This document shows, piece after piece, positions 4,254 through 38,255 of a DNA stretch of 43,854 nucleotides; position 1 is the first letter of the stretch; each line of letters opens with the position of its first letter. This stretch comes from Phycisphaerae bacterium (lineage in GTDB: Bacteria > Planctomycetota > Phycisphaerae > Tepidisphaerales > Tepidisphaeraceae). Below the pieces are notes generated by a model that saw only the letters and a list, made by a program, of their open reading frames with translations, made no database searches and was not told where the DNA came from. Where the stretch lies: the NCBI GenBank assembly GCA_025924315.1, contig JAICIO010000043.1, positions 1-43,854 on the forward strand. Direction: 5' to 3'. Position numbers and translations under genes: made by a program.

Positions 4254-5672
4254 ATGGATCTGTTTCACGATTCGCGAAAGAGAAATCTCCAGCGCGTCGC
4301 GCCGCTCGCGGCGCGGATGCGGCCGCGTTCTTTGGATGAGTTCGTGGGGCAGCAGCATTTTCTGGGGCCGGGGAAGTTGCTGCGACGAATGCTGGAGGCG
4401 GATCGATTGACGTCCGTGATTTTTTACGGTCCGCCGGGGACGGGGAAGACGACGCTGGCGTCGCTGATTGCGCAGTACACCAAAAGTCATTTCGAACAGG
4501 TGAACGCCGCGGGGGTGGGCGTGAAGGAAGTGCGGGCGATTCTTGATTCCGCGAAGGAGCGGCTGGCGAATGGCGGACAGCGGACGGTTTTGTTCATCGA
4601 TGAGATTCATCGCTTTAATCGGGCGCAGCAGGATATTCTGCTGGGGGATGTTGAAGCCGGTTTGATTCTGCTTGTGGGGGCGACAACGGAGAATCCGTTC
4701 TTCGCGGTGAACTCGCCGCTGGTGAGTCGGAGTCAGATTTTTCAGTATTCGGCGCTCTCGGAAGACGACATTAAGACGCTGATCAAACGGGCGGCGGAGG
4801 ATAAGGAACGCGGGTTTGGGAACTTGAATTTGCAGATCGATGCGGACGCGATGGATCTGTGGGCGACGATGTCGGATGGGGATGCGCGGCGAGCGCTGAT
4901 GGCGCTGGAAGTCGCAGTTCTTTCGTTGCAAAAGGAGCGTGTGGCACAGCCGCCCTCGGCTGTGTCCGACGCGCGAGCGGAAGCACAGTCCCGACCGGTG
5001 GGGACTGTGCCACAAACGGCTCCGCTCATCCATATCACTTTGGATGTCGCTGAGCAGTCGATGCAGCGGAAGGCGATCGTTTATGACGGAACGGGCGACG
5101 AACATTACGATGCGGCGAGCGCGCTGATTAAATCGATGCGCGGAAGCGATCCGGACGCGGCGGTTTATTGGGTGGCGCGCATGCTCGAGGCCGGTGAAGA
5201 TCCGCGATTCATCGCGCGGCGGATTGCAATCCTGGCGAGCGAAGATATTGGAAACGCCGATCCGCGCGCGATCATGGTCGCCGCGGCGGCGTTTGATATC
5301 GTAGAGAAGATCGGGATGCCTGAAGCGCAGCTGACGCTGGGGCAGGCGGCGATTTATATGGCGCTGGCGCCGAAGAGCAACGCATCGGCGATGGCGATCT
5401 GGACCGCGATGTCAGACGTTAAAGAAGGCCGCACCCTCCCCGTTCCCAGACATTTGCGCGATACGCACTACAAGGGCTCGAAAAAGCTTGGACATGGCGA
5501 AGGCTATAAGTATGCTCACGACTACGAGGGCGGACACGTTGAGGAGGATTACCTCGGCGTGCCGAAGATCTATTACGAGCCGACGAATCGAGGCCTGGAG
5601 GCGGAGTTTCAGAAACGGCTCGAACAACTGCGAGGAGGCAGAAGCCAGGAGCCAGAAGCCAGAAGCCAGTAG
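4254..5672 (+). CDS. rarA: RarA/MgsA family replication-recombination AAA+ ATPase
   Basis: RarA (WHIP/Mgs1 family) is a clamp-loader-like AAA+ ATPase acting at stalled replication forks. From the ATG at 4254 it has 472 residues. It begins MDLFHDS, like its homologues. An ATG at 4245 is a possible alternative. Landmarks are RPRSLDEFVGQQHFLG, Walker A GPPGTGKTT (59-67), Walker B LFIDEIHRFN (113-122), the sensor region GATTENPFF (142-150), the lid motif SDGDARRAL (207-215), and the tetramerisation domain starting AEQSMQRKAIVYD (266-278). Two features are odd. Residues about 230-254 are encoded by a palindromic repeat pair inserted in frame between the lid and the tetramerisation domain. The last dozen residues (GGRSQEPEARSQ) are encoded by a second repeat. 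Both spots are tolerant linker or tail positions, so the enzyme is probably active. Confidence 0.95.
   Translation: MDLFHDSRKRNLQRVAPLAARMRPRSLDEFVGQQHFLGPGKLLRRMLEADRLTSVIFYGPPGTGKTTLASLIAQYTKSHFEQVNAAGVGVKEVRAILDSAKERLANGGQRTVLFIDEIHRFNRAQQDILLGDVEAGLILLVGATTENPFFAVNSPLVSRSQIFQYSALSEDDIKTLIKRAAEDKERGFGNLNLQIDADAMDLWATMSDGDARRALMALEVAVLSLQKERVAQPPSAVSDARAEAQSRPVGTVPQTAPLIHITLDVAEQSMQRKAIVYDGTGDEHYDAASALIKSMRGSDPDAAVYWVARMLEAGEDPRFIARRIAILASEDIGNADPRAIMVAAAAFDIVEKIGMPEAQLTLGQAAIYMALAPKSNASAMAIWTAMSDVKEGRTLPVPRHLRDTHYKGSKKLGHGEGYKYAHDYEGGHVEEDYLGVPKIYYEPTNRGLEAEFQKRLEQLRGGRSQEPEARSQ
4941..5013. repeat. REP-like inverted pair inside rarA (mosaic)
   Basis: The left unit (4941-4964) is GTGG plus stem CACAGCCG, loop CCCT, stem CGGCTGTG. 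The right unit, read on the other strand (5013-4984), is GTGG plus stem CACAGTCCC, an 8-nt loop, and stem GGGACTGTG. The outer GTGGCACAG and the closing CTGTG are shared while the hairpin cores differ, so two different units are paired. The pair is in frame in rarA and encodes about 25 residues. Confidence 0.85.
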
Positions 5673-5772
5673 AAGTAATACTGGTGATTGGTGATTGATG
5701 CATGACATCGCATCCATCACCAATCACCAATCACCACTTTCTTCTGGGTTCTGGCTTCTGGCTACTGGCTTC
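5638..5772. repeat. nested inverted element of 7-nt tandem repeats
   Basis: The outer left arm has four heptamers of the AGAAGCC type (5640-5667). The outer right arm has four heptamers of the CTTCTGG type (5741-5768), their complement. Nested inside are TGGTGAT heptamers (5682-5700) and three ATCACCA heptamers (5716-5736), again complementary. The whole forms a long imperfect hairpin that fills the rarA/formyl-THF ligase gap and supplies the rarA stop codon and last residues. Confidence 0.85.
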
Positions 5773-5782
5773 AGACTAAAGC

Positions 5783-6379
5783 ATGTCTGAAACAAGCAAA
5801 TCCGCGCTGCGACGTGAGCTGAGGCAGAAGCTCGCGGACATGACCGAAGCGCAGCGTCACTCGAAAAGTGCCGCCGCTTGTTCATTGATCGCGGCGACGC
5901 CTGAGTTCCAGGCGGCGCGCACGATCATGCTCTATCTGCACACGCCGACGGAAGTCGACACCGCGCCGCTGGCGCTTCGCGCGTGGCAGGAGGGGAAGGA
6001 AGTCCTCGTACCGAAAGTTTCCTGGGATCAGCGGCGCATGCTTCCGGTCGAGATCAGCAGCCTGCAGACCGGCATGACGACGACAGGCTCCGGCGTGCGC
6101 GAACCGATCGCGGGCAAACCGGTGCCTGTCGATTTCATCGATTTCGTGATCGTGCCGGGGCTGGGGTTCAGCAACAACGGCTATCGCATCGGCCGCGGAA
6201 TGGGTTTCTACGATCGCTTCCTCGCGCAGCCGGAATTCATCGGCGTGTCGTGCGGGCTCGCGTTCGAAGAACAAATTGTGCCGGACCTTCCCATCCTCGA
6301 TCACGACATGCCGCTGGGGATGCTCGCCACCGACGGCGGCGTGCGGCGGTTTGTGACCAATCGCATCGAAACGAAATAG
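5783..6379 (+). CDS. 5-formyltetrahydrofolate cyclo-ligase
   Basis: The product is a cytoplasmic enzyme of 198 residues, the usual family length, converting 5-formyl-THF to 5,10-methenyl-THF with ATP. It shows the N-terminal basic helix (KSALRRELRQKLADMT), TIMLYLHTPTEVDT, KEVLVPKV, and the family signature VPGLGFSNNGYRIGRGMGFYDRFL, which forms the ATP and metal site. ILDHDMPLGMLAT lies near the end. The ATG at 5783 comes 10 bases after the end of the nested repeat, and no ribosome-binding site is visible. The repeat therefore occupies the position of the usual 5' leader. The downstream small gene starts 12 bases after the stop. Confidence 0.95.
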   Translation: MSETSKSALRRELRQKLADMTEAQRHSKSAAACSLIAATPEFQAARTIMLYLHTPTEVDTAPLALRAWQEGKEVLVPKVSWDQRRMLPVEISSLQTGMTTTGSGVREPIAGKPVPVDFIDFVIVPGLGFSNNGYRIGRGMGFYDRFLAQPEFIGVSCGLAFEEQIVPDLPILDHDMPLGMLATDGGVRRFVTNRIETK

Positions 6380-6391
6380 TGCTGGATCGCG

Positions 6392-6886
6392 ATGAGCTTC
6401 CCTACACCGCGCCAAAAGCTCGCGGCACTTCTTGTGATCGTCTGGCTGATCGCAACGGCATGGTGGAATGTGCGAAGCGAATCGCCTTACCGCGTGCTAC
6501 TCCAAAACGATCCCAACTCACCGCTGTTTAAGTTCGCTCATCAATACGACGACATCGACAATACCGCCGAGCATCTCCTTCCAGCATCCGGAAACCTGGC
6601 GATCGGGTTTCGCGGCTACGATGCAACGGATGCTCGCGATCAGGCGACAGCGGCGAGGATCTACTTGCGATCGGTCTACAGGGTGTATCCGCGCAGGGTC
6701 TATCCGCTTATCGCGGCTGGAGTGAGTGCCAACGGTCAATCGCTTCTGCAGTCGCAGGTGCGGCCGGACGAATCCTGGCTTCGCGAACATGGCGTCGGGG
6801 CGCTCGCATTGTTTTCGAAATTGCCCAACGGGGAAGAGTCGGTTCAGCGTTTTGAGATTCCGCAGCCGGCAATGGATTCGCGATAA
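6392..6886 (+). CDS. hypothetical protein with one N-terminal membrane anchor
   Basis: The protein has 164 residues and I do not recognise the family. Residues about 9-26 (KLAALLVIVWLIATAWW) form a single membrane segment or uncleaved signal. The rest is a soluble, probably periplasmic domain with SPYRVLLQNDPNSPLFKF, a Tyr/Arg-rich helix RIYLRSVYRVYPRRVYPL, and DESWLREHGVGAL. It lies 18 bases upstream of a GT-C-like membrane protein, so the pair is likely one operon. It may be an accessory protein of that enzyme, which is inference from position alone. Confidence 0.75.
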   Translation: MSFPTPRQKLAALLVIVWLIATAWWNVRSESPYRVLLQNDPNSPLFKFAHQYDDIDNTAEHLLPASGNLAIGFRGYDATDARDQATAARIYLRSVYRVYPRRVYPLIAAGVSANGQSLLQSQVRPDESWLREHGVGALALFSKLPNGEESVQRFEIPQPAMDSR

Positions 6887-6904
6887 ACAGTTTCCCCGAA
6901 ATAC

Positions 6905-8302
6905 ATGCTCGTTGCATACTTCATTTTGATCTTGTGTGCCGGATATGTCGTCGGCTCGATCCTTCTTGGGGCAATACGCGCTTCGATCCTGGAGATACTC
7001 GCGATCTCGCTCACCTGCGGAATGGGCGCGGTCGCCTTTTCTCTTTTTGCACTGAGCCTGTTCTCAATCCGGTTGTCCGCGTCGGTGCTTTGGATCCTGA
7101 TTCTGGCGTTCTTCCTGGCCCTGTCGGTGCTCGCCAACCGGCGTGCAATCATCACGTGGAATCGCGTGCGGTGTCCGGTCGCTTGTCGCAGTTGGTGGGC
7201 TCACCTGCTGCCGATTGTGGTGATCGGCTATTGCATCCTTGTTGTCTTTTGCAGCGCAACACGGTTCCCGCTGTACGACTGGGACGCGTTTTCGGTCTGG
7301 TTAATTAAATCGAAGATCTTGCTGCAACAGCCGGTCGTGCCCGTGCCGAATGGCTTTGTGGACCCTTCGCTCGCGTACAGCCACCAGGATTATCCGCTTG
7401 CGCAGCCGCTGCTGGTCGCCGGTGCGTGGACAACGACCGGACGGGCGGATGACTCGATCGCAATGCTCACGCTCGCGCTCCCGTGGCTCGCGATCGGAGT
7501 GTGGATTGCGGCAGAGGCGAAACGGCGAATCGGCCCCTCAGCCGCCATCTGGCTGATGGCGATTATTCTCTCGATCCGCGCGCCCTTGCTTGCGTCGACA
7601 TCCGGAAGTGCGGACGTATTGCTCGCCTGCTTCTATCTCGGGCACGTCGTGTTCGTCGTTCGCTGGCTGGAAGGCGGCTCGATTCGAGATTGCGCGATCG
7701 CAGGTTTTTTCGCAGCGTGCATGTGCTTCACTAAGCGTGAGGGACTGGCACTGTCGGTCGTCAGCCTTGGAGCAATGACGGTTTTTTCCGCCCGATCGAT
7801 TGCCGAAAGAACGCGTCATCTGGCGGCATTTGCCGGCGTCACGCTATTCTTCATCGCGCCGTGGCTCATCTGGCAGACTCGTTTGCCGCATGTCACCGAA
7901 GCATACTACAGTCGCCTCACACCGTCGATTCTCTACGAAAACCTGCCGCGCGTTCCGGCGATTCTTTCCGCGATCGCGCATGAATGCCTTTCGTGGCGAT
8001 CGTGGGATGGATTGTGGATCGTGCTCATCGCGATCGCGGGGCTGTCCTTCAATTCGATGCGAAATCGTGTTGTGCTGGCGATGTGGTCGCTGCTGGTCGG
8101 GCACTTTATCGTGAACGCGCTGGCGTTCTTCGTCGCCTCCGACGCGATCTATGGAATGATGCCGGCCGTTCTTGACCGGCTCACGATCCACGCGTTTCCG
8201 CTGGCGGCGCTTCTGATCGTGGTCCATGGATCGAGCCTCTTTGGACGCCGGTATCCACCACTTGAAACGCCGCAAGTCATTACGCAACCGTCATCACCTT
8301 GA
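6905..8302 (+). CDS. multi-pass membrane protein, GT-C (PMT/ArnT-like) glycosyltransferase candidate
   Basis: The product has 465 residues with about ten or more hydrophobic helices. After the first helices, the loop FPLYDWDAFSVWLIKSKIL (about 121-139) has the acidic DWDA..W...K arrangement seen in the first external loop of GT-C enzymes, which use lipid-linked sugars. YSHQDYPLAQPLLVAG follows, another feature common in this group. The catalytic role is inferred from fold type only, and neither donor nor acceptor can be named. The gene follows the anchored hypothetical protein and converges on the TPR membrane protein gene with a 27-base gap in which I see no strong terminator. Confidence 0.75.
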   Translation: MLVAYFILILCAGYVVGSILLGAIRASILEILAISLTCGMGAVAFSLFALSLFSIRLSASVLWILILAFFLALSVLANRRAIITWNRVRCPVACRSWWAHLLPIVVIGYCILVVFCSATRFPLYDWDAFSVWLIKSKILLQQPVVPVPNGFVDPSLAYSHQDYPLAQPLLVAGAWTTTGRADDSIAMLTLALPWLAIGVWIAAEAKRRIGPSAAIWLMAIILSIRAPLLASTSGSADVLLACFYLGHVVFVVRWLEGGSIRDCAIAGFFAACMCFTKREGLALSVVSLGAMTVFSARSIAERTRHLAAFAGVTLFFIAPWLIWQTRLPHVTEAYYSRLTPSILYENLPRVPAILSAIAHECLSWRSWDGLWIVLIAIAGLSFNSMRNRVVLAMWSLLVGHFIVNALAFFVASDAIYGMMPAVLDRLTIHAFPLAALLIVVHGSSLFGRRYPPLETPQVITQPSSP

Positions 8303-8329
8303 ACGCCCGCCCGCCGGCGGAACGCGCGA

Positions 8330-9970
8330 TCAGTGCCGCTCTTCTTCGCACTGCTTCAGCATTTCGCGCGCCATGGCATCGTCGGGATTGATCTGCAACG
8401 CCTGTTCCAACAGCCGGATTGCGTCGTCAATCCTCCCCTGCTGCTTTCGAAGGAAGCCGAGATAGATGAGGGCTGGCGGACTGCGCGGCTGGAGGCGCAG
8501 CGCTTCCGTCAGCTGCGCATCGGCTTCGGACAATTGCCCGGTTTGCAGCAGGCAATACCCGAGCCGCCAGTGGATTTCGTCGTCGTCGGGCCAACCTTTG
8601 AGCGTCTCGCGGAGTTGCGCGATGGCTTCGTCGTGTCGCCCGGCGTCCCAGAGCGCGTGCGCGAGGATCGCATGCAGCTGCGGATCGCCGCCGACGTTTT
8701 TCATCGACGAAACGAGCAAGGTTTCGGGCGTAGACCAGACCATCACCTGCGTGAACGTGAGCACGCTGAGAAGAAGCAGGATTAGCGCCGAGCCGATCCC
8801 AATCGCGAAACGATGCGGTTTCGCGGGCAGCAGATCGAGCACGAGCCAAACGATCGCGATACTCAGGCCGATGCTCGGCAGGTAACTGTACCGATCGGCC
8901 ATCGCCTGCAATCCGATCTGAATGATCCCGATGACCGGCAGGAGCATCACCGTGAACCAGGCGAATCCAACGAATAGCGCGCGCTGGTTTCGCGCTCGCA
9001 AAAGCACGATCGCCGTGATGAGAAGCAGCGCAATGGTTGCAGAAGCAATCAAAACAGGCGGCCAGGAATTTGGACGCGGATAGACGATGCTCAGCTCGCT
9101 CGGCCAGGCGAAAACGCCGACATAACGGACGAGCGAGAGGACAGCGTTTTCGACGCGCGCGGTGAGCGAGAATTGCCCCTGCACCGCTCCGCCTCTCACT
9201 TGCGTCAGCCACGCAATGACCGCGAAGAAAATCGCGAGAATCGCGAGGGGAACTTTTTCGAGGATCAGGCGCTTGAGGTTCGATCTGCCCAGCGGCCAGT
9301 AATCCAACAGAAGCAGAATGATCGGCAGCGTGACGAGCATCGGTTTGCTGAGCAGGCCGAGAAGGAACATCCCGACGACGAGCAGATACTTCCCCGGGCT
9401 TGGCGATTTCGCGTACTGCGCGTAGGCGATCAGGCAGAGCATGAAGAAGAGCGCGCTCAGGACGTCCTTGCGCTCGGAGATCCAATCGACCGATTCGACG
9501 TGCTGTGGGTGCAGCGCAAAGACGGCGGCGATGAAGGCGCTGGGCCATGTGCGGCCCGTGAGCATGCGCATGGCGATGAACAGGAGCACGCTGCTCGTGA
9601 CATGCAGGAGCACGTTGACGAGATGCTGCCACATCGCGTTGAGGCCGAAGAATTGCACATCGGCCATGTGCGTGAGGGTCGTCAGCGGGTGGTACATCGA
9701 GACGTGCTGGTGTGTGAACGCCCAGGCGATGTTCTGCCAGCTCAGGCCGGCGAGCACGTGCACGTTTTGCGTGACGTACCAGTCGTCGTCCATCAGGTTG
9801 AAGCCGGAGAAGAGCGATCCGCTGTAGACGATCAGGGTAGCGAGCGCAAGCGCGATTGCGATGAGGATTGGGGTGCGGCGCTTCTCAACCCGCGCAATCG
9901 GAGAGGATTCGGGGATCCCCCCTTTCCGACTGGCCGGTTTTGTCCGCACACGTGGCATTCGCCCAAGCAT
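8330..9970 (-). CDS. GT-C-type membrane protein with C-terminal TPR repeats
   Basis: From the ATG at 9970 the protein has 546 residues, and an ATG at 9958 is possible. The open frame runs further upstream to 10243, but that part translates the repeat pair at 10065-10164 and is not credible coding sequence. After a basic cytoplasmic start there is a first helix, then the loop FNLMDDDWYVTQNVHV with the paired acidic residues typical of GT-C transferases, then HPLTTLTHMADVQFFG and HPQHVESVDWISERKDVLSALFF. These are hallmarks of the O-mannosyltransferase/TMTC-like TPR family. About ten membrane helices follow. The last 150 residues hold tetratricopeptide repeats, including PPALIYLGFLRKQQGRIDDA. 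The likely role is protein or surface glycosylation, with a periplasmic TPR domain. Confidence 0.8.
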   Translation of the reverse strand: MLGRMPRVRTKPASRKGGIPESSPIARVEKRRTPILIAIALALATLIVYSGSLFSGFNLMDDDWYVTQNVHVLAGLSWQNIAWAFTHQHVSMYHPLTTLTHMADVQFFGLNAMWQHLVNVLLHVTSSVLLFIAMRMLTGRTWPSAFIAAVFALHPQHVESVDWISERKDVLSALFFMLCLIAYAQYAKSPSPGKYLLVVGMFLLGLLSKPMLVTLPIILLLLDYWPLGRSNLKRLILEKVPLAILAIFFAVIAWLTQVRGGAVQGQFSLTARVENAVLSLVRYVGVFAWPSELSIVYPRPNSWPPVLIASATIALLLITAIVLLRARNQRALFVGFAWFTVMLLPVIGIIQIGLQAMADRYSYLPSIGLSIAIVWLVLDLLPAKPHRFAIGIGSALILLLLSVLTFTQVMVWSTPETLLVSSMKNVGGDPQLHAILAHALWDAGRHDEAIAQLRETLKGWPDDDEIHWRLGYCLLQTGQLSEADAQLTEALRLQPRSPPALIYLGFLRKQQGRIDDAIRLLEQALQINPDDAMAREMLKQCEEERH

Positions 9971-10064
9971 CCACGGCGTCGCACGAATCGGCAAGCGTTC
10001 GCGATCTCGCCCGACCGGCCCGCCTACACTACGATGGGGGAACTGATACGTTATTCGGGAAATG

Positions 10065-10164
10065 GTGGCACCGACATTCCTGTCGGTGATCGGACGCCGT
10101 AATCGGCGGCCGACATGCGTCGATGAGTACATCGCCGCATCACAGGCAAGAATGCCTGTGCCAC
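10065..10164. repeat. REP-like inverted pair with two different hairpins
   Basis: The left unit (10065-10088) is GTGG, stem CACCGACA, loop TTCC, stem TGTCGGTG. The right unit on the other strand (10164-10141) is GTGG, stem CACAGGCA, loop TTCT, stem TGCCTGTG. Both are exactly 24 nt with the same 4+8+4+8 layout but unrelated stem cores. They lie between the divergent TPR-protein and cyclase genes, separated by 52 bases that contain a smaller CGATG/CATCG hairpin. Confidence 0.85.
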
Positions 10165-10214
10165 CGCTGGAGAAGAAGAACTCGGCGGCCGGATGCGCGC
10201 CAAGAGATTTTCGC

Positions 10215-11420: not shown

Positions 11421-11455
11421 ATGCCCCTGATAACAGCAAAATCCCTCGGTTTTCC

Positions 11456-19401: not shown

Positions 19402-20466
19402 CTACGGCCCCACCTGAAGCGGAAGCTGCACGACGATCGGGGGAAGCATAAAGACATCCATCGCGTTCCCCTCAAAGTCGGTCGGGTTGTTGTTGTCGTT
19501 GAACCCTTTGCCAACCATGAACACGTCGGCGGCCGGGATCTCCTTGATGTCGTCGGCGGTGTTCAACACACCGTCTCTTCCGGGGCTGATCTGAAAATCG
19601 TTGCCGGGTTGGAGTTCGTAAACGTTCGGCGCGACCACGCTGCCGAGGCGGTAATACTGTCCGTTCATCAGCGTCGCGTTCAGGCCCGGGAGCTTGTCGT
19701 CGGAAACAAGAATGTACGCTCCCGGAGCAATTGCCCCGTTGAACGGATCGGTGCCGGTGAACGTGGCAGTGTCGACGCCGAACGTTCCTGTCGTGCTGTC
19801 CTGGATGTGCACCCCGGTGAACAGTTTGGGATGCGCGCTGGCAATACCTGAATTAAAGGGAGCAGGTCCCGGCGTTGCGGGCGGATCAAAGTCTGTGCGA
19901 TCGAAGATCGGTTTCGTCTGCGATTGAATAGCGAGCACGTAAACTTCCGCGTAGCGCGCGACGCTGGCGGCAGGGCCAAAGGTGCCGTTGCTTTCGTCGG
20001 ACAGCTTGTAGCCCATCGGAATCCAGGCGAAGCGCGGGTCGGCGGTGTCGACGAAGTTGCCCTTGAGCCGATCCCAGCGACTGGGCGTTAACGTGCCAAG
20101 CCCATCGATCGCATGAACCTTCCCGTCCGCGAGCGCCGGCTTGGGGGCGGAATAGTCTGCGTAACTGCTGATATCGCCATATGGCGCCGGAATCGCCACC
20201 GGCACTCCATTGGCCGGGTTTGCGGGCACGCCGCCTTCGGACAACAGGTTCGCAATCACAATGCTTCCGGTTCGGCCGACCGTCACACCCGCGGAATCCG
20301 ACAAGCTCTCCTGCGTCTGACTGATCGCCACAGGAAAAATCGCCGCGATCATGATGAACCCGATGCCCAGCACAATGACGGCGAACATCACTTCCGCAAA
20401 CGAAAAACCGCGGCGCAACGTCATTCGCTTCGTGCCTTTGTGCCTGAGTGCCTTCGTGCCTTCCAT
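19402..20466 (-). CDS. GspI-like pseudopilin with repeat-encoded leader
   Basis: From the ATG at 20466 the protein has 354 residues, and an upstream AGAGGTGA supports this start. Alternatives are GTG at 20475 and ATG at 20424. The prepilin signature is RRG-FSFAEVMFAVIVLGIGFIM, with Glu at +5. The leader segment KALRHKGTK is encoded by an array of four 8-nt repeats. The mature part is Pro/Gly/Asp-rich with no recognisable catalytic motif. Its position directly after the H-like gene (one-base gap) and before the J-like gene argues for the I slot of a minor pseudopilin set. If translation begins at 20424 the leader is the normal short MTLRRG and the repeat lies in the 5' region. Confidence 0.72.
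   Translation of the reverse strand: MEGTKALRHKGTKRMTLRRGFSFAEVMFAVIVLGIGFIMIAAIFPVAISQTQESLSDSAGVTVGRTGSIVIANLLSEGGVPANPANGVPVAIPAPYGDISSYADYSAPKPALADGKVHAIDGLGTLTPSRWDRLKGNFVDTADPRFAWIPMGYKLSDESNGTFGPAASVARYAEVYVLAIQSQTKPIFDRTDFDPPATPGPAPFNSGIASAHPKLFTGVHIQDSTTGTFGVDTATFTGTDPFNGAIAPGAYILVSDDKLPGLNATLMNGQYYRLGSVVAPNVYELQPGNDFQISPGRDGVLNTADDIKEIPAADVFMVGKGFNDNNNPTDFEGNAMDVFMLPPIVVQLPLQVGP
20429..20460. repeat. four tandem 8-nt repeats (TTCGTGCC type)
   Basis: The copies are TTCGTGCC, TTTGTGCC, TGAGTGCC and TTCGTGCC in a row. This is the same octamer family as the inverted pair at 23292-23422, but only one arm is seen here. The array lies in the leader-peptide region of the I-like pseudopilin. 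Confidence 0.85.
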
Positions 20467-20467: not shown

Positions 20468-21706
20468 TCATTCACCTCTCACCAGCGTGCCGTTGTAGCG
20501 GTTGACCGTCAGCAGCAGTGATTCGCTGTCGAGCCAGCTTTCCTCGGCGGCCTCGCCGGTCACGCTGGCTGTGGCGCCGTATTTTGAGATCGGCGCGAAC
20601 AAGTCGTTGTCCGTGAAGTCCTTGTCCTTGAACTCGCTCAGGTCGTAGAGCGCGACGCCCAGCTGCGTGTACAGCTGAGGATAAGTCGGCGTGTCGAGAT
20701 CCGCGGTCAGACCGATCTTCTGGCCCAGCGCGCTGGCCGCTCGAATGCCGTACGGAATACTGTCGAACCGTCCCTTGCCGTCGAACATGATGACGCCGGT
20801 CCGGACGTATCGATCCGTGATCGCCGGAGTAGTCTTTCCGCCCTTCGTGTCATTCACAAGCTGCACGCCGACGCCGACGGGAAGGAATTCCGATTCGGCA
20901 TCGATATCGAAGTCAATGAACTTCTGCTGAGCGCTCGCCCAGTAAGTCCCATTCGGCGGGCGAGTGTCAATGGTTGCGTCATGGTCCTTGATGCAGACAA
21001 ACTTCTGCACGATCAGCCGATTCTCCTTCGCCGGGATGGTGCCGTCTTTTGCCGGCCAAGTCTGAGTGGGATCGCCATCGGCCACGACTGCGATCACCTG
21101 CTGACCCACCAGGTAGTGCACCGTGGCTCCCGACCCGCTGAGCTTCCAGCCTTTGTAGTTGTCGAAGGTGTCCTCGGCCCCAACTGACGCCCCGTCGCGC
21201 TGCACGACAATGGTCATCGTGCTGCGGCCGGTGACGGGGTCGAGATAGAACGCCACGCCGGCATCGCGCTCGGTTTCAATCGCCCGTGCGCGGGCTCGGC
21301 CGAGCATGGCGGAGACGATGTTTTGCGCGCCGTCGATGCTTCGTCCACCCGTGATGAACTTGAACGCCGGCACCGCCATCGCGAGCAGCAGGACGATCAA
21401 CGCGATGACGATCAGCAGTTCGGTGAGGGTGAAGCCGTTCGGTGAAGAGAGGATCGAGGATCGAGGATTGAGGATGGCGACACAGGCATCATCGCTATTC
21501 TCCATCCTCCATTCGCCATTCTCTCCGCGCTCAAGCGCAGGGCGGGCTGCAGACAGCTGAACGCTGGCGTGTGCCCCTCCGATAATGGCGCCGGGCAAAC
21601 TTCCGGTAGCCCGGCCAGCACCAGCGCACTTCCGCTGACTGCCGCCCGCCCCGCGCTCGATCCGCGGCTCGCATTCGATTGTCGCGTTGCTCGGCTTCAT
21701 GGTCAT
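20468..21706 (-). CDS. GspH-like pseudopilin with long repeat-containing leader
   Basis: The open frame has 412 residues. The prepilin signature G-FTLTELLIVIALIVLLLAMAVPA is at about residue 92, far further in than normal. The preceding stretch contains ENGEWRMENS and ILNPRSSIL, which are translations of the heptamer repeat pair at 21449-21524. The ATG at 21706 overlaps the upstream stop (ATGA), which supports translational coupling from there. A downstream start closer to the cleavage site cannot be excluded. The helix is followed by a GspH-like pattern (GGRSIDGAQNIVSAMLGRARARAIE, then beta-rich sequence). The C-terminus overlaps the ribosome-binding region of the I-like gene. Confidence 0.75.
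   Translation of the reverse strand: MTMKPSNATIECEPRIERGAGGSQRKCAGAGRATGSLPGAIIGGAHASVQLSAARPALERGENGEWRMENSDDACVAILNPRSSILSSPNGFTLTELLIVIALIVLLLAMAVPAFKFITGGRSIDGAQNIVSAMLGRARARAIETERDAGVAFYLDPVTGRSTMTIVVQRDGASVGAEDTFDNYKGWKLSGSGATVHYLVGQQVIAVVADGDPTQTWPAKDGTIPAKENRLIVQKFVCIKDHDATIDTRPPNGTYWASAQQKFIDFDIDAESEFLPVGVGVQLVNDTKGGKTTPAITDRYVRTGVIMFDGKGRFDSIPYGIRAASALGQKIGLTADLDTPTYPQLYTQLGVALYDLSEFKDKDFTDNDLFAPISKYGATASVTGEAAEESWLDSESLLLTVNRYNGTLVRGE
21449..21524. repeat. paired arrays of four 7-nt repeats
   Basis: The left array is GAGGATC, GAGGATC, GAGGATT, GAGGATG (21449-21476). The right array is ATTCTCC, ATCCTCC, ATTCGCC, ATTCTCT (21497-21524). The arrays are of two different heptamer families that are partly complementary through the shared GAGGAT/ATCCTC core. 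The whole element is within the leader-coding part of the H-like pseudopilin. Confidence 0.85.
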
Positions 21707-22686: not shown

Positions 22687-23362
22687 ACCTGGCGTCTTCC
22701 GGCGGCGCATTGACCGGCAGCGACTCGTAGCTGTACAGGTTGTCGTCGCGCGTGTGGTACTTCTGGTCCGGGCCGGCGCTGAAGAAAAATGGCGCATCTT
22801 TCGGCGCCTGCCCGACTTGTGGATTGCGCTGCGGGGCCATCCCAATCTGCGGATGCATCCCGGCCATGAACACGATCGGGTTGCCCCACGCGTCGTGCAG
22901 CGACGCATTGTTGTACATCGCCACGGGGAGCCGGCCGAAAAGGTTCTCCGATTGATCGTTCTTCGAAGAAGGATTGGTCGTGCCGAGCCGCGTGCGGGCA
23001 TCGTTCTTCAGCGCCGCGACGATCTCCTGGTTGTTCTTGCGGGCGTTGCGGGCCAGCGTCTCTTCGTCCGGTAACGGCGCGCCATCTTCAACCAGCGGCG
23101 TGACGACCGGCAGCTGGTCGTGGTTGTGCGCGAGATAGGCGTCGAGCTGGAGGCTGAGCTGCGCGAGCACTTCGCGCGAAAGCGTGTTGGCGGACCGATC
23201 GCGCACAAACCGCGCGAGGCTGACCATCAGCCCCAGCACAATGATGAGCACCGCGACGGTGGTCATCATTTCGATGAGGGTGAAGCCGGAAGAGGCACGG
23301 AGGCACGAGGGCACGGAGGCACGGAGTGGTGAACGGCAGGCAGAAGGATTCAGTGAATGCAC
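22685..23362 (-). CDS. GspG-like pseudopilin with repeat-encoded leader
   Basis: The protein has 225 residues. The start is GTG at 23362 with AGAGGA a few bases upstream. The leader SPLRASVPSCLRASS is largely the translation of an array of 8-nt repeats and includes a cysteine. Next comes G-FTLIEMMTTVAVLIIVLGLMV, the prepilin signature with Glu at +5. The body ends with the GspG-type markers HDAWGNPIVF and FFFSAGPDQKYHTRDDNLYSY, where the Asp-rich end would bind Ca2+ in classical GspG. It follows a 70-base gap that holds the other arm of the repeat. Confidence 0.8.
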   Translation of the reverse strand: MHSLNPSACRSPLRASVPSCLRASSGFTLIEMMTTVAVLIIVLGLMVSLARFVRDRSANTLSREVLAQLSLQLDAYLAHNHDQLPVVTPLVEDGAPLPDEETLARNARKNNQEIVAALKNDARTRLGTTNPSSKNDQSENLFGRLPVAMYNNASLHDAWGNPIVFMAGMHPQIGMAPQRNPQVGQAPKDAPFFFSAGPDQKYHTRDDNLYSYESLPVNAPPEDAR

Positions 23363-23422
23363 TTCATTCCTCTATGCCTCCGTCACCCCTCGGTGCCTTA
23401 GTGCCTTCGTGCCTCGGTGCCT
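23292..23422. repeat. inverted pair, each arm four 8-nt repeats
   Basis: The left arm is four octamers of GAGGCACG type (23292-23323). The right arm is four octamers CGGTGCCT, TAGTGCCT, TCGTGCCT, CGGTGCCT (23391-23422). The arms are complementary over about 40 bases with mismatches. The left arm encodes the leader peptide of a GspG-like pseudopilin, and the right arm lies in the gap upstream of it. Confidence 0.9.
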
Positions 23423-31337: not shown

Positions 31338-31485
31338 TTCTTTCCCAACCTGACAAACGCGCGTGAGGCACGTCACCCACTCACGGAATGAATACGAACC
31401 ATCGTACGATTCGACGCTCCGCGTTCAATCGGTGTTTCCACCGAGTTTCCGCGATTTCTTAAATCGGGTACGATTGCCTCGCTCA

Positions 31486-32721: not shown

Positions 32722-33350
32722 GCCTGATCGAACGGATTCACACAACGCAAGTCCACACGCGGCGCGTGCGTCGATTGTGCGAATTGCTCTCGAACCAGTT
32801 TCCGCGCGAAGGCAGAGTCCTCGACGTCGGATGTGGTGACGGACTTCTCGCGCAGTGCATTCTCGAGCGCATCAACCAACCTCACCAAGCCCACGGCTTA
32901 AGCCGTGGGCAATTCAAGATCGAAGGCATCGATGTTCTCGTGCGCGATGACACGCACATTCCTGTGACGCGCTTCGATGGAAACAAAATTCCCTTCGACG
33001 ACAACTCCTTCGATTCCGTGATGTTCGTCGATGTCCTTCACCACACCGACGATCCGATGGTCCTGTTGCGCGAGGCCAAACGCGTCACCCGCGGGACGAT
33101 CGTGATTAAAGACCACACCATGAATGGCGTCGCTTCGGGGCCGACGCTGCGTTTCATGGACCGCGTCGGCAACGCGCGCTTCGGCGTTTCCCTGCCGTAC
33201 AACTATTGGCCAAAGCAAAAGTGGATGAACGCGTTCGATGAGCTGGGTTTGAAAATTGAACACTGGGAGAAAAATCTCGGCCTGTACCCCTTCCCCGCAA
33301 ATTTGTTTTTTGGACGATCGCTCCACTTCATCGCGCGATTGAGGAAGTGA
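32718..33350 (+). CDS. class I SAM-dependent methyltransferase with repeat-encoded insertion
   Basis: The protein has 210 residues and its ATG overlaps the GT2 stop. SAM motif I is RVLDVGCGDGLLA (33-45), followed by IPFDDNSFDSVMFVDVLHHTDDP with its acidic motif, then TRGTIVIKDH and the C-terminal FGVSLPYNYW. Residues 58-65 (AHGLSRGQ) come from a 22-nt perfect palindrome inserted in frame between motif I and the second strand (IEGIDVLVR), a loop position likely to tolerate it. The acceptor is unknown. Co-transcription with a polyprenyl-sugar synthase suggests a role in lipid or glycan modification. The next gene starts at the base after its stop. Confidence 0.85.
   Translation: MSLIERIHTTQVHTRRVRRLCELLSNQFPREGRVLDVGCGDGLLAQCILERINQPHQAHGLSRGQFKIEGIDVLVRDDTHIPVTRFDGNKIPFDDNSFDSVMFVDVLHHTDDPMVLLREAKRVTRGTIVIKDHTMNGVASGPTLRFMDRVGNARFGVSLPYNYWPKQKWMNAFDELGLKIEHWEKNLGLYPFPANLFFGRSLHFIARLRK
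32889..32910. repeat. 22-nt perfect palindrome inside the methyltransferase gene
   Basis: GCCCACGGCTT and its reverse complement meet with no spacer (32889-32910). The stem is GC-rich around a central TTAA. It reads in frame and adds a short peptide. It lacks the GTGG/GTAG start seen on other units. Confidence 0.8.
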
Positions 33351-33722
33351 ATGCGACGCCGTCTCTCGAAATTCATCCTGATCAGTTCCCTTGTCCTGCT
33401 GGTGATTACGCTCGGAATCTGGCCGGTCAGTTATCGCACGACGGTTGGGTACATCTGGACGACGGGATCGTTTCTGCTGGAAGGGAAAGAGAACGTCGAT
33501 TCGCACTTCGGCATAACCGCCGCGCACGGGATTCTGCGCGTCGAGCAATTCGTAACGCGCGTTCCCGCTACGCAACCGGTCGTATATGAAAACATCGACA
33601 GACTTCAGACCACCCGCGCGACCGCGCCGCTCTGGGTTTTCGCGATCGCCTGGAGCATTATCGCGCTCGTCGCGTGGCTGGCGCGGCGCAGTATGATCTC
33701 CGGGCAACCGAATGACGACTGA
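33351..33722 (+). CDS. hypothetical small membrane protein
   Basis: The protein has 123 residues and I do not recognise the family. There is one membrane helix near the N-terminus (KFILISSLVLLVITLGIW) and one near the C-terminus (APLWVFAIAWSIIALVAWLA). Between them is a soluble stretch of about 65 residues with TTVGYIWTTGSFLLEGKENVDS and a probable amphipathic segment. It begins at the base immediately after the methyltransferase stop and overlaps the next methyltransferase gene by 11 bases. It is therefore translated as part of the operon. The spacing strongly suggests a real gene despite the lack of a known family. Confidence 0.75.
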   Translation: MRRRLSKFILISSLVLLVITLGIWPVSYRTTVGYIWTTGSFLLEGKENVDSHFGITAAHGILRVEQFVTRVPATQPVVYENIDRLQTTRATAPLWVFAIAWSIIALVAWLARRSMISGQPNDD

Positions 33723-34374
33723 AACGAGCTCAATCAGCGAATGGGAAGCCGCCTATCAGCGCTTCGAAACGCCCGAGCAGGAAGTCGCGAAGTTCATCAA
33801 GCGGCTGCGGCAGATGGGCGCCGATTCCTGGCCGCGCGGCGCGAAAATCGTCGAAATCTTCTGCGGCCGAGGAAATGGGTTCGTGGCGCTCTCGCAACTT
33901 GGGTTCACGAATCTCGAAGGCGTCGATCTCAGCGCCGATCTCCTCAGCAAATACCAGGGCCCCGCCAAGACCTACGTCCGCGATTGCCGGCAGCTTCCGT
34001 TTGAGGATGGCTCCCGCGACATCCTCATCGTCCAAGGCGGACTGCACCATCTGCCGACGCTTCCGAGCGACCTGGAGCAGACGCTGAACGAAGTCAAGCG
34101 CGTGCTCAAGCCCGGCGGACAGTTCATGGTTGTCGAACCGTGGCTCACGCCGTTTCTTCGAGCGGTGCATTTCGCCAGCGAACGAAAACTCGTTCGCGCG
34201 ATCTCAAAGAAGTTCGACGCGCTGCACACGATGATCGTGAACGAACAGCGGACGTACGATCAGTGGCTCTCGCAACCCGATGCGATCGTGAAGCTGCTCG
34301 ATGAGCGGTTTGCGCGCGAACAATTCCGCGCGGCTTGGGGGAAACTAATGTACCTCGGAAGGCGCGGTCGTTGA
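33712..34374 (+). CDS. class I SAM-dependent methyltransferase
   Basis: The protein has 220 residues. SAM-binding motif I appears as KIVEIFCGRGNGFVALSQLG (45-64), then EGVDLSADLL with the acidic residue, VRDCRQLPFEDGSRDIL, a GGLHHLP loop and RVLKPGGQFMVVEPW, the standard order for class I enzymes. The first 40 residues are a helical cap. The acceptor is unknown. It is the fourth gene of the GT2/methyltransferase operon. Its 3' end overlaps by 30 bases the convergent GT-C gene on the minus strand. A repeat pair follows directly. Confidence 0.85.
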   Translation: MTTETSSISEWEAAYQRFETPEQEVAKFIKRLRQMGADSWPRGAKIVEIFCGRGNGFVALSQLGFTNLEGVDLSADLLSKYQGPAKTYVRDCRQLPFEDGSRDILIVQGGLHHLPTLPSDLEQTLNEVKRVLKPGGQFMVVEPWLTPFLRAVHFASERKLVRAISKKFDALHTMIVNEQRTYDQWLSQPDAIVKLLDERFAREQFRAAWGKLMYLGRRGR

Positions 34375-36144
34375 GGTCGCATGTGGCACAGCCGCCCTCG
34401 GCTGTGCTTTTGCAGGATGCACAGCCGGGAGCGGCTGGGCCACACTGGTCGTCGCCGACTTTTTCTTCGGCCACTTGTGCACGTACACCTCGACCTGCGT
34501 CGTCGGATTCCACTTCCGCGTGAGCATGCGGCGCCAACCCGGACGGTGAATCAATTCGTCGGCGATTTCGTCCATTCGATTGCGCGCTTTCTTTGTCGAT
34601 GGTTGCGGCGCGTCCGGCCTGGGTCGCCAGAGAACCAGAATCCCCATGTCCGTTGCGAAGAGGCGGCGCTCGACTTCATCGATATTCTTGTCCGGTGGGA
34701 AGCCGACGAAAGGCATACCGAGGTGATAGGCGAGGTACGTGCCGCGCGTGAGTGCCGTACTCGCCATCGGACCTTTCAGCATGTTCTCTGGCTTGAGGAT
34801 CTCTTGCGCGATCTCACGATAGCGCGGGAACGATCGCGGTTGCATCGCGGCATAGGTTTCGCGCGCGGCGGGGATGAAGAACGAGATCACGATGATGCCC
34901 GCGATCACCGCGCGAACCGGTGGAATCGAAAGCATTTGCCAGCGCGCCCCGAGGATGCGCAGGAGCAGGACGCACAGCGCGAGCGACAGCGGCAGCATCA
35001 TCGAATTGACGTAGCGCGGCTCGAAATAGATGAAGAGGAATCCGCCGCAGTAAATCGCGAGCGTGATCACCGTCCACAGCGCTTCGCTTGCGTCTTCGCT
35101 GCCGTCGAAGAGCCGGCGACCGGCGAAGGGCAGGAGCAGAATCGCGACGAGAGGAAGCCACAGCAAGTCGAGCGAGCCGGCGGTTTTCAGCAGCTCAATT
35201 GAGTTTTTGCCGATCAGGCTGACCTGATGAACGAAATTCTTCCGGCTGGAGAACGGCGACCAATCCGTCCGCGGAAGGAAGTCGGTGTACTCGTTGCGGA
35301 TGATGTATGGCGGCGGCGGGACCTGGAACCAGTCGGGGCGATCTTCTTCCTCGTCTTTCGGTCCGACATACGCATGCGCGATCTCGCCGACGGTGCTGAT
35401 CGTGAATTTGTGATAGCGATAGGAGAGCAAGCCGATCCAAGGGCCTGTGACGACGACAAACGCGATCGAGCCGAGAAGGCCCGTGGCGAAAACACGCTTG
35501 CTGATCTGCGAAACCGCGAGCGATGGATCGCGCCGCTTCGTTGTCCACGCGAAGAAGAGCAGCGTGAACGCGAAATGCGCGAAGAAGACTGGGAACGCGT
35601 ACGCCTTAGCGAGAAACGAGAATCCGCCGATCGCGCCGGCGAGCAGCGCGAGCCGCTTTCGCTCAAGTAATCGCGGCGAGTAAACGACTCCGAGGTAGAT
35701 GAAGAGCCATGTCGAAAGCAGAAGGTCCGGCGTGATGACGCTCGTCGCGACGTGAATTGCGAAAATGCCGATCACGCACATCAGCGCGCCCAGCAGAATG
35801 CCACGCACCTTCGCAACGCGGTGCAGAAACCACCCCGCCGCCAGCATGTAGAGGCCACCCCAGACCGCGAGCGTCCAATGCGCCGCATGCAGCGCATCGA
35901 CCCCGGCGCGCAAAAACGGAACGATGGACCACGAAATCATCGGCGACCAATACGCCGACGCGCTGCGCTCAACCCACCCATTGTTGAGGTACATCGCCCG
36001 GCGGATGTAACAGATCCCGTCCGGGTTGATTGCTTCCAAAACATTATTCGTCGCCGGAATCGCCAAGCCGACGTAGAGCGCGATTGGAATGAGCAGAAGG
36101 AGCGTGCGCCGCAGAAATGAGAATTTTGGATTTCCGATTTGCAA
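34345..36144 (-). CDS. GT-C (PMT/ArnT-like) membrane glycosyltransferase, TTG start, repeat-encoded tail
   Basis: The product has 599 residues and about ten to twelve membrane helices. The first external loop has INPDGICYIRRAMYLNNGW with the acidic residue typical of GT-C enzymes, then SASAYWSPMISW. The soluble C-terminal part (about 430-575) has PRYREIAQEILKPENM. The only possible start is TTG at 36144, because an in-frame stop lies seven codons upstream and there is no earlier ATG or GTG. This start sits inside the repeat at 36121-36216. The last residues SVAQPLPAVHPAKAQPRAAV are encoded by the repeat pair at 34383-34443. Both gene ends are thus repeat-derived. The function is presumably transfer of a lipid-linked sugar, perhaps one made by the nearby GT2. 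Confidence 0.8.
   Translation of the reverse strand: MQIGNPKFSFLRRTLLLLIPIALYVGLAIPATNNVLEAINPDGICYIRRAMYLNNGWVERSASAYWSPMISWSIVPFLRAGVDALHAAHWTLAVWGGLYMLAAGWFLHRVAKVRGILLGALMCVIGIFAIHVATSVITPDLLLSTWLFIYLGVVYSPRLLERKRLALLAGAIGGFSFLAKAYAFPVFFAHFAFTLLFFAWTTKRRDPSLAVSQISKRVFATGLLGSIAFVVVTGPWIGLLSYRYHKFTISTVGEIAHAYVGPKDEEEDRPDWFQVPPPPYIIRNEYTDFLPRTDWSPFSSRKNFVHQVSLIGKNSIELLKTAGSLDLLWLPLVAILLLPFAGRRLFDGSEDASEALWTVITLAIYCGGFLFIYFEPRYVNSMMLPLSLALCVLLLRILGARWQMLSIPPVRAVIAGIIVISFFIPAARETYAAMQPRSFPRYREIAQEILKPENMLKGPMASTALTRGTYLAYHLGMPFVGFPPDKNIDEVERRLFATDMGILVLWRPRPDAPQPSTKKARNRMDEIADELIHRPGWRRMLTRKWNPTTQVEVYVHKWPKKKSATTSVAQPLPAVHPAKAQPRAAVPHATSTTAPSEVH
34383..34443. repeat. REP-like inverted pair at the end of the GT-C gene
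   Basis: The left unit (34383-34406) is identical to the GTGG unit at 12821-12844 and 4941-4964. The right unit on the other strand (34443-34420) is GTGG followed by CCCAGCCG, CTCC, CGGCTGTG, with three differences. A 13-base spacer separates them. The pair encodes the C-terminal tail of the minus-strand GT-C protein. Confidence 0.88.
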
Positions 36145-36216
36145 TTGCGATTGAAGCCGAAGTCAGAAGTTAATCCGACTTCGGCTTCAATCGCAAATCG
36201 CAAATCGAAATTCGCA
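36121..36216. repeat. inverted element with 7-nt repeats flanking an 18-bp perfect stem
   Basis: The inner arms 36147-36164 and 36177-36194 are perfect 18-base reverse complements with a 12-base loop. Outside them lie heptamers of AATCGCA type (four copies, 36189-36216) and the complementary TTTCCGA/TTTGCAA-type series on the left. The element fills the gap between gspE and the GT-C gene and contains that gene's TTG start. Confidence 0.85.
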
Positions 36217-36224
36217 AATCCCGG

Positions 36225-38168
36225 TCACTCTTCCATGATCGTTTCGCGGACGACTTCTTCGATCGTGCTGATGCCGTCGAAGATCGCCATGAGGCCGGAC
36301 TGGCGCAGCGTGCGCATGCCGCGCTTCTTCGCTTCGGCACGCAGGACCTGCGTGCTGGCGTGCTTCACGATGAGGTCGCGCATGTCATCGTCGAGCAGCA
36401 TGATCTCATACAAGCCGAATCGCCCGCGGTAACCGGTGTTGTTGCACTGCTCGCAACCCTTGCCGTACCAGAACTTCTTTCCGGTGACGTCTTCGGGACG
36501 AAGCTCCAGCTCCATGAGCTGCTCTTCAGCGGGCGTGTACTCCGCCTTGCAGTTAAGGCAGATTTTGCGGACGAGTCGCTGAGCGACGATGCCTTCGAGC
36601 GTCGCGGTGACGAGGAACGGTTCGAGGCCAAGATCGAGCAATCGTGCGATGGCGCTCGGAGCGTCATTCGTGTGCAGCGTCGAGAACACCAGGTGACCCG
36701 TGAGCGACGCCTGCACGGCGATTTCGGCGGTTTCCTTATCGCGAATTTCACCGACGAGAATCGTGTCCGGGTCCTGACGCAGCATGCTACGCAGGATGCG
36801 GGCGAAGGTCAGTTCGATTTCCGGTTTGATCTGGCACTGAATGATGCCGTCGATGTCGTATTCGACCGGGTCTTCGGCGGTGATCAGCTTGCTGCTCACG
36901 TCGTTCAGTTCACGCAGCGCTGAGTAAAGCGTGGTGGTTTTGCCGGAACCGGTCGGGCCCGTGCAGATGACGATGCCGTTGGGGCGGTGAATGAGCTGGC
37001 GCATAACGTTGAGGTCATCGTCGCGCATGCCAAGCTTGTCGAGGTCCAGCTGCACGTTCGAGCGGTCGAGCACGCGCATCACGACGCTTTCGCCGAACAT
37101 CGTGGGAAGCACGCTGACGCGGAGGTCGATCGGCTGGTTGTTCACGTTCAGTTCAATACGACCGTCCTGCGGCATACGGCGCTCGGCGATGTCGAGGTTC
37201 GCCATGACTTTCACGCGCGACGCGATGGCCGGCGCGATGTGCGCGGGCGGCGGCATCATTTCGTACAGGATGCCGTCGATGCGGTAACGCATCTTGAATT
37301 CGTCTTCGAACGGCTCGAAGTGAATGTCGGATGCCTTGTCCTTGATTGCCTGCAGCAGCACGAGGTTGATCAGCTTGCGGACGGGATTGCTGTCGGCCGC
37401 TTCCTTCAGCGAGTCGAGGTCGATCGATTCGCCGCGGTTTTTCAGGTCCTTGAGCGCGTCGTCCTGCTGAAGCTCGCCGAGGATTTCCCCGAGGCCTTCC
37501 GCGGCGGTGTTGTAGTGCTTGTTGATGAGCTTATCGATCTGTTCCGGATCACCGATCTTGGCGGTGACGTTGTAACCCATCAGCGAGCGGAGGTCGTCCA
37601 GCGCGCGGAAGTTTTCCTGGTTCGCCATGACGACGGTCAGCTTGCGGGTGTTCTTGTCGAACTCGACCGGAAGCACTTTGTTGGTCGTCGCGATCTGCGC
37701 GGGGACGGCTTCGATCGCTTCCTTCGGAATGTTCACGCCGTCGAGATTGACCAGCTCGTAACCCTTCTGAGCGGCCAGCGCGATGTTGAGATCGGCTTCC
37801 TTGACATAACCGAGGTCGATGAGGATTCGGCCGAGGGCGCCACCCTTGGACTTTTGGAATGTGAGCGCTTCGACGACCTGCTCGCGGGTGACTTTGCCCA
37901 TCTTGGTCAGCACGCGACCGATGGGTCGGCCCTGGAGCTGATCGATCGGCGGCATGCCAGGCATTGTCGAGGGCGCAGCGGCCGGCGCGGGCGCGGCGCC
38001 ACCGGGAGTTTTAGTCGGAGGCGACGAGGCGCCGACGGACGGCGCTTTCGGCGGAGTCGCGCCCGGCTTGTTGGCCGGCATCCCCGGACCTTTCACGCCC
38101 TGCTGCTGCTTGCGCGGATCGGGCGCGCCGGAAGGATTAGAGCTCGGCGGTGGCGTGACTCGTGACAT
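36225..38168 (-). CDS. gspE: GspE/PilB-family assembly ATPase with Pro/Ala-rich N-terminal tail
   Basis: The protein has 647 residues. The first 72 are Pro/Ala/Gly-rich and presumably disordered. An MshEN/GSPII_E_N domain (about 80-165, with RPIGRVLTKMGKVTREQVVEAL) follows, then the N2 domain and the ATPase core. Core motifs are Walker A GPTGSGKTT (404-412), the Asp box AEDPVEYDIDG, Walker B LVGEIRD (471-477), and the His box STLHTND. Two CXXC pairs (ICLNC and CEQCNNTGYRGRFG) form the zinc-binding C-terminal module common in this family. It powers addition of pilin-like subunits. The ATG at 38168 has GAGGA six bases upstream. It is the last of three motor genes on this strand. Confidence 0.95.
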   Translation of the reverse strand: MSRVTPPPSSNPSGAPDPRKQQQGVKGPGMPANKPGATPPKAPSVGASSPPTKTPGGAAPAPAAAPSTMPGMPPIDQLQGRPIGRVLTKMGKVTREQVVEALTFQKSKGGALGRILIDLGYVKEADLNIALAAQKGYELVNLDGVNIPKEAIEAVPAQIATTNKVLPVEFDKNTRKLTVVMANQENFRALDDLRSLMGYNVTAKIGDPEQIDKLINKHYNTAAEGLGEILGELQQDDALKDLKNRGESIDLDSLKEAADSNPVRKLINLVLLQAIKDKASDIHFEPFEDEFKMRYRIDGILYEMMPPPAHIAPAIASRVKVMANLDIAERRMPQDGRIELNVNNQPIDLRVSVLPTMFGESVVMRVLDRSNVQLDLDKLGMRDDDLNVMRQLIHRPNGIVICTGPTGSGKTTTLYSALRELNDVSSKLITAEDPVEYDIDGIIQCQIKPEIELTFARILRSMLRQDPDTILVGEIRDKETAEIAVQASLTGHLVFSTLHTNDAPSAIARLLDLGLEPFLVTATLEGIVAQRLVRKICLNCKAEYTPAEEQLMELELRPEDVTGKKFWYGKGCEQCNNTGYRGRFGLYEIMLLDDDMRDLIVKHASTQVLRAEAKKRGMRTLRQSGLMAIFDGISTIEEVVRETIMEE

Positions 38169-38207
38169 GGGTGTCCTCGCTAAGTAGTTAACTCAACATT
38201 CACTTAC

Positions 38208-38255
38208 TGGTGATTGGTGATTGATGAATGACCATCAACCACCACGCATCAATCA
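38208..38255. repeat. heptamer repeat element between pilT and gspE
   Basis: TGGTGAT, TGGTGAT and TGATGAA (38208-38228) are followed directly by ACCATCA, ACCACCA, CGCATCA and ATCA (38231-38255), roughly their complement. It is the same heptamer family as the inner part of the element at 5638-5772. It ends seven bases before the stop codon of pilT. Confidence 0.75.

Follow-up and report, generated by a model that had tools for sequence, protein, structure and literature searches.

In the intervening sequences (IVSs) of the 23S rRNA of Coxiella and Leptospira, an S23 open reading frame (ORF) is located within terminal inverted repeats; a proposal of 1993, as cited in PMC4990558, holds that these sequences are mobile and that the ORF takes part in the movement. 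The heptamer repeats GGGAATC and GGGGA(C/T)T of Xanthomonas and Nostoc were related to G-quadruplexes by Rehm et al. in 2015, with a preference for four units; those of Xanthomonas are intergenic and form 70–75 convergent pairs per genome, with 2–26 units (PMC4692102). The present analysis concerns a 43,854-nt stretch of DNA from a Phycisphaerae bacterium (GenBank assembly GCA_025924315.1, contig JAICIO010000043.1, positions 1–43,854), hereafter called the window, which is contig C43 of genome G000 (6.57 Mb, 262 contigs). Six loci of the window carry tandem arrays of a 7- or 8-mer, and they probably represent miniature, gene-less versions of bacterial mobile elements that, in full form, contain an S23/IVP gene. 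The original prediction, which rightly stated that the architecture has no familiar class name, did not recognize the affiliation of the arrays, which are best read as the arms of such a mobile element.

The elements resemble the 23S rRNA IVSs in that their full forms have a gene of the S23 family between terminal inverted repeats, the copies in the window being without the gene. The known IVSs are, however, located in 23S rRNA, whereas the loci considered here lie between or inside protein genes and none of them is in a 23S rRNA helix. The many gene-less derivatives form a further contrast, as the tandem 7/8-mer arms may also do. With the heptamers of Rehm et al. there is a direct point of contact, because GGGAATC arms enclose an IVP gene at the accB–accC junction of Luteimonas. 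These heptamers were described without a parent gene, while here they are one unit family of many, most of which are unable to form quadruplexes. It is probable that the heptamer repeats published for Nostoc and, as GGGAATC, for Xanthomonas are of one class with the present elements.

The full form is found at locus L036 (16316–16775), where AGAAGCC arms enclose a PF05635 gene (23S_rRNA_IVP/S23; E = 7e-35). The closest solved structure to the encoded IVP protein is XCC0516 (2GSC, E = 6.6e-18), and a weak match to bAvd (PF22296, E = 2.9e-4) falls below the cut-off. The IVP protein is probably of the same fold family as the Avd protein of diversity-generating retroelements; the element here differs from those systems in being without a reverse transcriptase. 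The loop at L036 amounts to about 390 bp and includes the gene; the separation of about 20–100 bases between arms that had been predicted is thus not general, and the loop length varies.

PF05635 matches are present in 25/25 genomes searched, as compared to 0/14 well-known control genomes. At 90 IVP loci, the two 200-bp flanks were compared with each other, one of them as its reverse complement, with offset positions serving as internal control. Inverted arms with a score of at least 14 are found at 79/90 of the IVP loci versus 5/384 offset positions (the loci come from genomes that carry the elements and from relatives of these, so that the fraction is no global estimate); at a score of at least 20, the numbers are 56/90 and 2/384, respectively. 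Arrays on both sides, counted in 150-bp flanks with five loci at provisional coordinates, occur at 23/90 IVP loci versus 0/556 offsets and 0/38 Y1_Tnp/RT loci. At the 50 IVP loci where the period is clear, it is 7 in 37 cases, 8 in 10, and another value in 3. A separate set, mostly from named cyanobacterial plasmids, has matching inverted arms at 7/8 plasmid IVP loci. The 5′ arm (on the strand read) is richer in G than in C at 71 of 76 IVP loci, and the IVP gene is co-directional with its upstream gene at 53 of 71, a bias that would agree either with host transcripts being used or with retention by selection.

One site is seen in full, miniature, and empty form: the accB–accC junction, which was located in 52 Luteimonas genomes and read on both strands, 30 loci being read out. 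A full element of about 440–461 bp is present in 13/52 genomes, and 11 of the 30 loci read out are empty, with 6–10 bp from the accB stop to the accC start and a spacer that is not conserved. In G258 (L210), the junction has a 159-bp miniature with TGGTGATT arms; its interior can be aligned to the two ends of an L204-type IVP gene. This match is the clearest evidence that the miniatures are internal-deletion derivatives. The inner sequence GGGGCAGAGG is likewise common to the miniatures of RI_153, an unclassified metagenome-assembled genome (MAG), and the full element L234. The arms at accB–accC are of the types GGGAATC, GGGATTC, and GTGATTSG, each with its own IVP sequence group. It is very likely that the full IVP elements are the parents and the gene-less copies their derivatives. 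As in the miniature inverted-repeat transposable elements (MITEs) of insertion sequences, these derivatives keep both parent ends (L210/L204; L234 and the RI_153 miniatures); in contrast to the MITEs, the parent is no insertion sequence and is without a recognized transposase, the ends are no fixed terminal repeat, and no target duplication is resolved.

In the window, each of the six predicted positions has a period-7/8 array no more than a few bases away (five of period 7 and one of period 8), as compared to none in order-3 Markov sequence. The features are given below, with the arm-pairing score set beside the highest value among 100 shuffles.

5633–5777, no strand assigned: miniature element with AGAAGCC arms (5633–5673 and 5740–5777); pairing 27.0, shuffle maximum 12.8
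5682–5737, no strand assigned: TGGTGAT hairpin inside the loop of the AGAAGCC element; pairing 16.0, shuffle maximum 9.8
20428–20463, no strand assigned: lone octamer arm, a tandem array of CTTCGTGC (reverse complement GCACGAAG)
21446–21525, no strand assigned: miniature element with GAGGATC-type arms (21446–21477 and 21497–21525); pairing 13.6, shuffle maximum 9.8
23292–23422, no strand assigned: miniature element with octamer arms GAGGCACG (23292–23328 and 23389–23422); pairing 23.0, shuffle maximum 11.8
36117–36221, no strand assigned: miniature element with arms of the GATTTGC/AATCGCA family and a GAAGCCGAAGTC inner stem; pairing 17.2, shuffle maximum 9.6
38207–38256, no strand assigned: decayed TGGTGAT miniature, of which the left array is present

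Complementary opposite arms had been described for all six loci. They are clear at 5638, 21449, 23292, and 36121, but decayed at 38208, where the partner arm does not rise above the shuffles (10.2 versus 10.6), and missing at 20429, where a partner array was sought within 700 bp and none was found.

The arm units tie these loci to full elements. The unit at 5633–5777 is identical to the arms of an IVP gene of the same genome (G000:C4:116384–116689, L165), and the unit family at 21446–21525 is that of the arms of another (G000:C101:11097–11414, L244), so that two of the five IVP genes of G000 carry arm units of the window. The octamer at 23292–23422 is that of the IVP elements L236 and L306, and the one at 20428–20463 is also that of the arms of the dnaE-borne IVP element of G211 and G222; this octamer thus flanks IVP genes in further members of the family, and TGGTGAT does so in other bacteria. 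At 36121 the unit sharing with full elements is weak, L276 alone fitting the pattern. From this sharing and the general parent–miniature relation, we consider with high confidence that the window loci would be non-autonomous derivatives of IVP-gene elements.

The wider genome shows the same architecture. In 427 kb of G000, sampled by regions and scanned for period-7 arrays, 29 arrays are found versus 0 in order-4 Markov sequence; an equal count in shuffled sequence, which had been named as the refuting outcome, did not occur. TGGTGATTGGTGATTG has 56 copies genome-wide, including the decayed miniature at 38207–38256, and the reversed control pattern has 0. The inner ATGCRTGAC of the hairpin at 5682–5737 is common to many TGGTGAT copies of G000, and elements nested in one another occur at 5682–5737 of the window, L050 (5346–5496), and L048 (13244–13372). 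The view of one architecture whose unit changes between loci, for which slippage alone is no explanation, is borne out. A copy number near four describes G000 roughly, with three units in 20, four in 14, and five in 3 of its 37 arrays, but it is not fixed in other genomes; at L067 (4990–5257), a Saprospiraceae MAG has a 268-bp GACTGCG/GACTTCG array of about 38 units. The arrays are rarer in open frames (15/39 lie within the bodies of mechanically defined ORFs, which cover 85% of the sequence). The statement that coding does not explain the arrays is too simple, as some elements are read through in frame: those in dnaE, in a capD-like gene, and at a MgsA/RarA-type gene, the end of which overlaps the element.

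The dnaE case is the most extensive of these. In G000, G203, and G211, the dnaE segment bounded by the motifs SKAF and DPAVY (or DPVVY) holds a full element, which the dnaE frame, different from that of IVP, crosses without a stop. A similar insert with octamer arms is present in dnaE of G222 (IVP frame, E = 2.4e-30). The dnaE and IVP frames are both open over 500–600 bp at L228 (G000:C125) and L296, and also at L170, L236, and L306, which shows how an essential gene can tolerate such elements. The octamer is alike in both arms. In G000 and G203, which represent two genera, it is GCGACGAA, whereas G211 and G222 have GGCACGAA, the unit found also at 20429 and 23292 of the window. In relatives, this position is taken by a short native loop or by other insertions, such as the 7-mer miniature of L309 or the CACAGAGA-type insertion of L301. 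The SKAF–DPAVY loop of dnaE is an insertion hotspot. Unrelated in-frame inserts at L301, L309, L299, and L297 comprise, among the four loci, a 7-mer miniature, a CACAGAGA-type hairpin, a GTGGCATGGGCGTC inverted repeat, and a C-rich octamer array.

The elements are dispersed to unrelated sites and to plasmids. Among IVP pairs with at least 55% identity, 42/49 have unrelated flanks, e.g., L174/L175 (89.5%) and L250/L252 (85%). Nostoc-type plasmids, some typed as conjugative, carry IVP genes with AGAAGTC-like arms that are about 60% identical to the G000 copy with AGAAGCC arms. The AGAAGCC unit is abundant in G000 and in G199 of the same family and absent from most of that family, and TGGTGAT is found in 4/199 sampled genomes of the phylum. 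The exact TGGTGAT hairpin also occurs in Luteimonas, Thermomonas, Stenotrophomonas, Caulobacteraceae, Saprospiraceae, Desulfuromonadales, Gemmatimonadaceae, and RI_153. The sequence just inside the arms is common within a genome or group and different between lineages, which indicates families of common descent. IVP protein similarity is higher in pairs with similar arms (mean 0.51 versus 0.32; 0/2000 permutations), a comparison of only ten such pairs in which 37/90 IVP proteins were left out, while the flank comparison took in all 90.

An analogous arrangement is observed with a different gene. PF13366 genes (GxxExxY, PDDEXK_3; L288–L294) have inverted arms of the 9/10-mer type at 7/9 loci with a score of at least 22, including CCACAGATGAACACAGATGAACAC, which is like the period-10 hairpins of G000 in kind. 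The GxxExxY genes and their 9/10-mer arms are a probable parallel element class. G000 has many gene-less period-10 hairpins with GxxExxY-arm units (ACAGATGAAC, ACGAAGGAC), e.g., at L034 (15228–15302) and L048 (9242–9331).

In the explanation that we favor, the full form would consist of one S23/IVP four-helix-bundle gene (PF05635) between inverted arms, each of about 3–5 copies of a 7- or 8-mer. Replication slippage along the arrays and hairpin template switching between the arms would keep the arms matched, and through the same processes the unit would slowly drift while the architecture persists. With less certainty, the arm hairpins may be acted on in trans by the IVP protein, with the strand chemistry and the completion of the insertion left to the replication or repair of the host. 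The solved relative of the IVP protein is a pentamer, and the IVP protein itself is probably a relative of Avd; it is not known to have a catalytic site. Because no transposase or reverse transcriptase is common to the carriers (neither Y1_Tnp nor a reverse transcriptase is present in all of them), the dependence on IVP is only inferred, and we give movement driven by the IVP protein about an even chance.

The most serious alternative, although an unlikely one, is that mobility or self-generation resides in the arms, which another enzyme of the host or of an element would move, with the IVP gene as passenger or beneficiary. The protein has no recognized catalytic function, TGGTGAT is abundant in G000 with no IVP parent found there, and GxxExxY is a different gene within analogous arms; on the other hand, the IVP gene is nearly always enclosed, its frame is preserved even in dnaE, where a second frame must stay open too, and the arm type tracks the IVP clade at accB–accC. 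Another candidate enzyme would be the RAYT (TnpA-REP, Y1_Tnp) transposase acting on REP/REPIN-type palindromes (Bertels and Rainey 2011, PMC3116915), to which the present elements are similar as abundant miniature inverted repeats presumably spread in trans. In favor of it, the repeats are short, inverted, and intergenic, and PF01797 genes occur in G000 (10 matches) and in many carriers. However, PF01797 is absent from 4/14 element-bearing genomes (G237, G244, G245, and G247), the Y1_Tnp loci are without flanking arms, the miniatures derive from IVP elements rather than from a Y1 transposase gene, and the arms are changing tandem arrays instead of one conserved REP. The RAYT/Y1 transposase is accordingly rejected as the mobilizer, and we regard this origin as very improbable. 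An Avd-style reverse transcriptase is also rejected, as no RVT_1 match is found in 11/26 genomes searched, including Luteimonas G239 and G247 and Stenotrophomonas G248.

If the stems were kept as RNA hairpins (RNase III substrates or mRNA stabilizers), the elements would be comparable to the 23S rRNA IVSs, which are excised by RNase III (PMC4990558), and the co-direction with upstream genes noted above would be accommodated. Sense-strand arm mismatches, however, give no excess of G–U over A–C type (120 versus 129), which disfavors selection on an RNA hairpin and is the reason for favoring DNA-level over RNA-level action; moreover, the frames remain open through the elements in dnaE and other genes, so that translation, not excision, would be selected at these coding sites. 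The RNA-level reading is thus improbable. G-quadruplex repeats under regulatory selection, as proposed for the Xanthomonas GGGAATC, would agree with the four-unit preference and the inverted pairs reported there and with the G-rich units seen here (GGGATTC, GGGTTCA). The architecture is, however, equal in units without G-triplets (TGGTGAT, AGAAGCC, TTGATTA, GATTTGC, GAGGCACG), which refutes the quadruplex as a general explanation and leaves it a negligible probability; runs of at least three G per unit are also lacking in GAGGATC. Since most units here are without G-triplets, the four-unit preference needs another cause. Purely local origin, i.e., arrays made in place by slippage and quasi-palindrome template switching with no mobility, would explain why arms match and units drift, and the favored model includes it for arm upkeep, but the same unit and inner sequence recur at dozens of unrelated sites and in several phyla, and presence/absence and deletion derivatives are found at one site, so that it is equally hard to sustain.

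Several points weigh against the favored reading of IVP-gene elements and their miniatures. No target-site duplication is resolved at accB–accC or dnaE, and neither a movement event nor an exact junction has been observed. Arms do not reach the threshold at 11/90 IVP loci, and the IVP sampling drew on element-bearing genomes and their relatives. TGGTGAT, the commonest unit in G000, has no parent among the five IVP genes of this genome, and the CAGTTGT unit has no match among the IVP loci compared. Furthermore, the change of unit within one site could reflect replacement by a new element instead of drift, and the IVP protein may be cargo or accessory.

The broadest form of the proposal is a widespread class of transposable elements without a recognizable transposase, in which a pentameric four-helix-bundle protein and host replication would spread hairpins with self-homogenizing array ends; the 23S rRNA IVSs, the Xanthomonas GGGAATC repeats, and the cyanobacterial heptamers would be members, and GxxExxY with its 9/10-mer arms a sister class. 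We judge this generalization to be as open to failure as to success. It would connect three separately described curiosities (the IVSs, the Xanthomonas "G4" heptamers, and the cyanobacterial heptamers) and would offer a genomic role for the S23/four-helix bundle, a very common protein of unknown function. The puzzle that it poses is movement without an identified transposase, by elements whose ends change sequence in concert, and laboratory cyanobacteria and E. coli would now allow a direct test of the IVS-mobility proposal of 1993. No paper linking S23/IVP genes to tandem inverted arms was found within the open-access literature; an earlier description elsewhere is possible.

As to the surroundings of the window elements, the miniature at 5633–5777 is located at the 3′ end of a MgsA/RarA-type gene, whose ORF (4212–5672) terminates within the arm, and is followed by a 5-formyltetrahydrofolate (5-FTHF) cyclo-ligase gene (5783–6379). 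The lone arm at 20428–20463 lies immediately upstream of a minus-strand pseudopilin-like start, and the miniatures at 21446–21525 and 23292–23422 are also at starts of pseudopilin-like genes (N_methyl motif). The leader peptide or translation start of these three genes may thus come from the elements. The miniature at 36117–36221 adjoins a T2SSE (PilB-like) ATPase gene, its neighbors and those at 5633–5777 being assigned from Pfam families, and the decayed one at 38207–38256 sits between two T2SSE-family ATPase genes. Rfam gave no match in the window at the gathering threshold.

Outside the window, a CGGGACT-type miniature at L037 (17826–17906) lies in frame within a gene resembling a capD-type nucleotide-sugar dehydratase. 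At L129 and L148 of Luteimonas, a native transcription terminator is present between the arms in place of element sequence, as if host sequence had become enclosed. On a Picosynechococcus plasmid (L320), an IVP gene is located between cas10 and cmr3, and on a Pseudanabaena plasmid (L323) another is between cas6 and cas4, the AAAAGCT/AAAAGCC arrays of the latter being direct, not inverted. An association between cas loci and 23S_rRNA_IVP genes has been reported (PMC3936711), and cases such as these may account for it.

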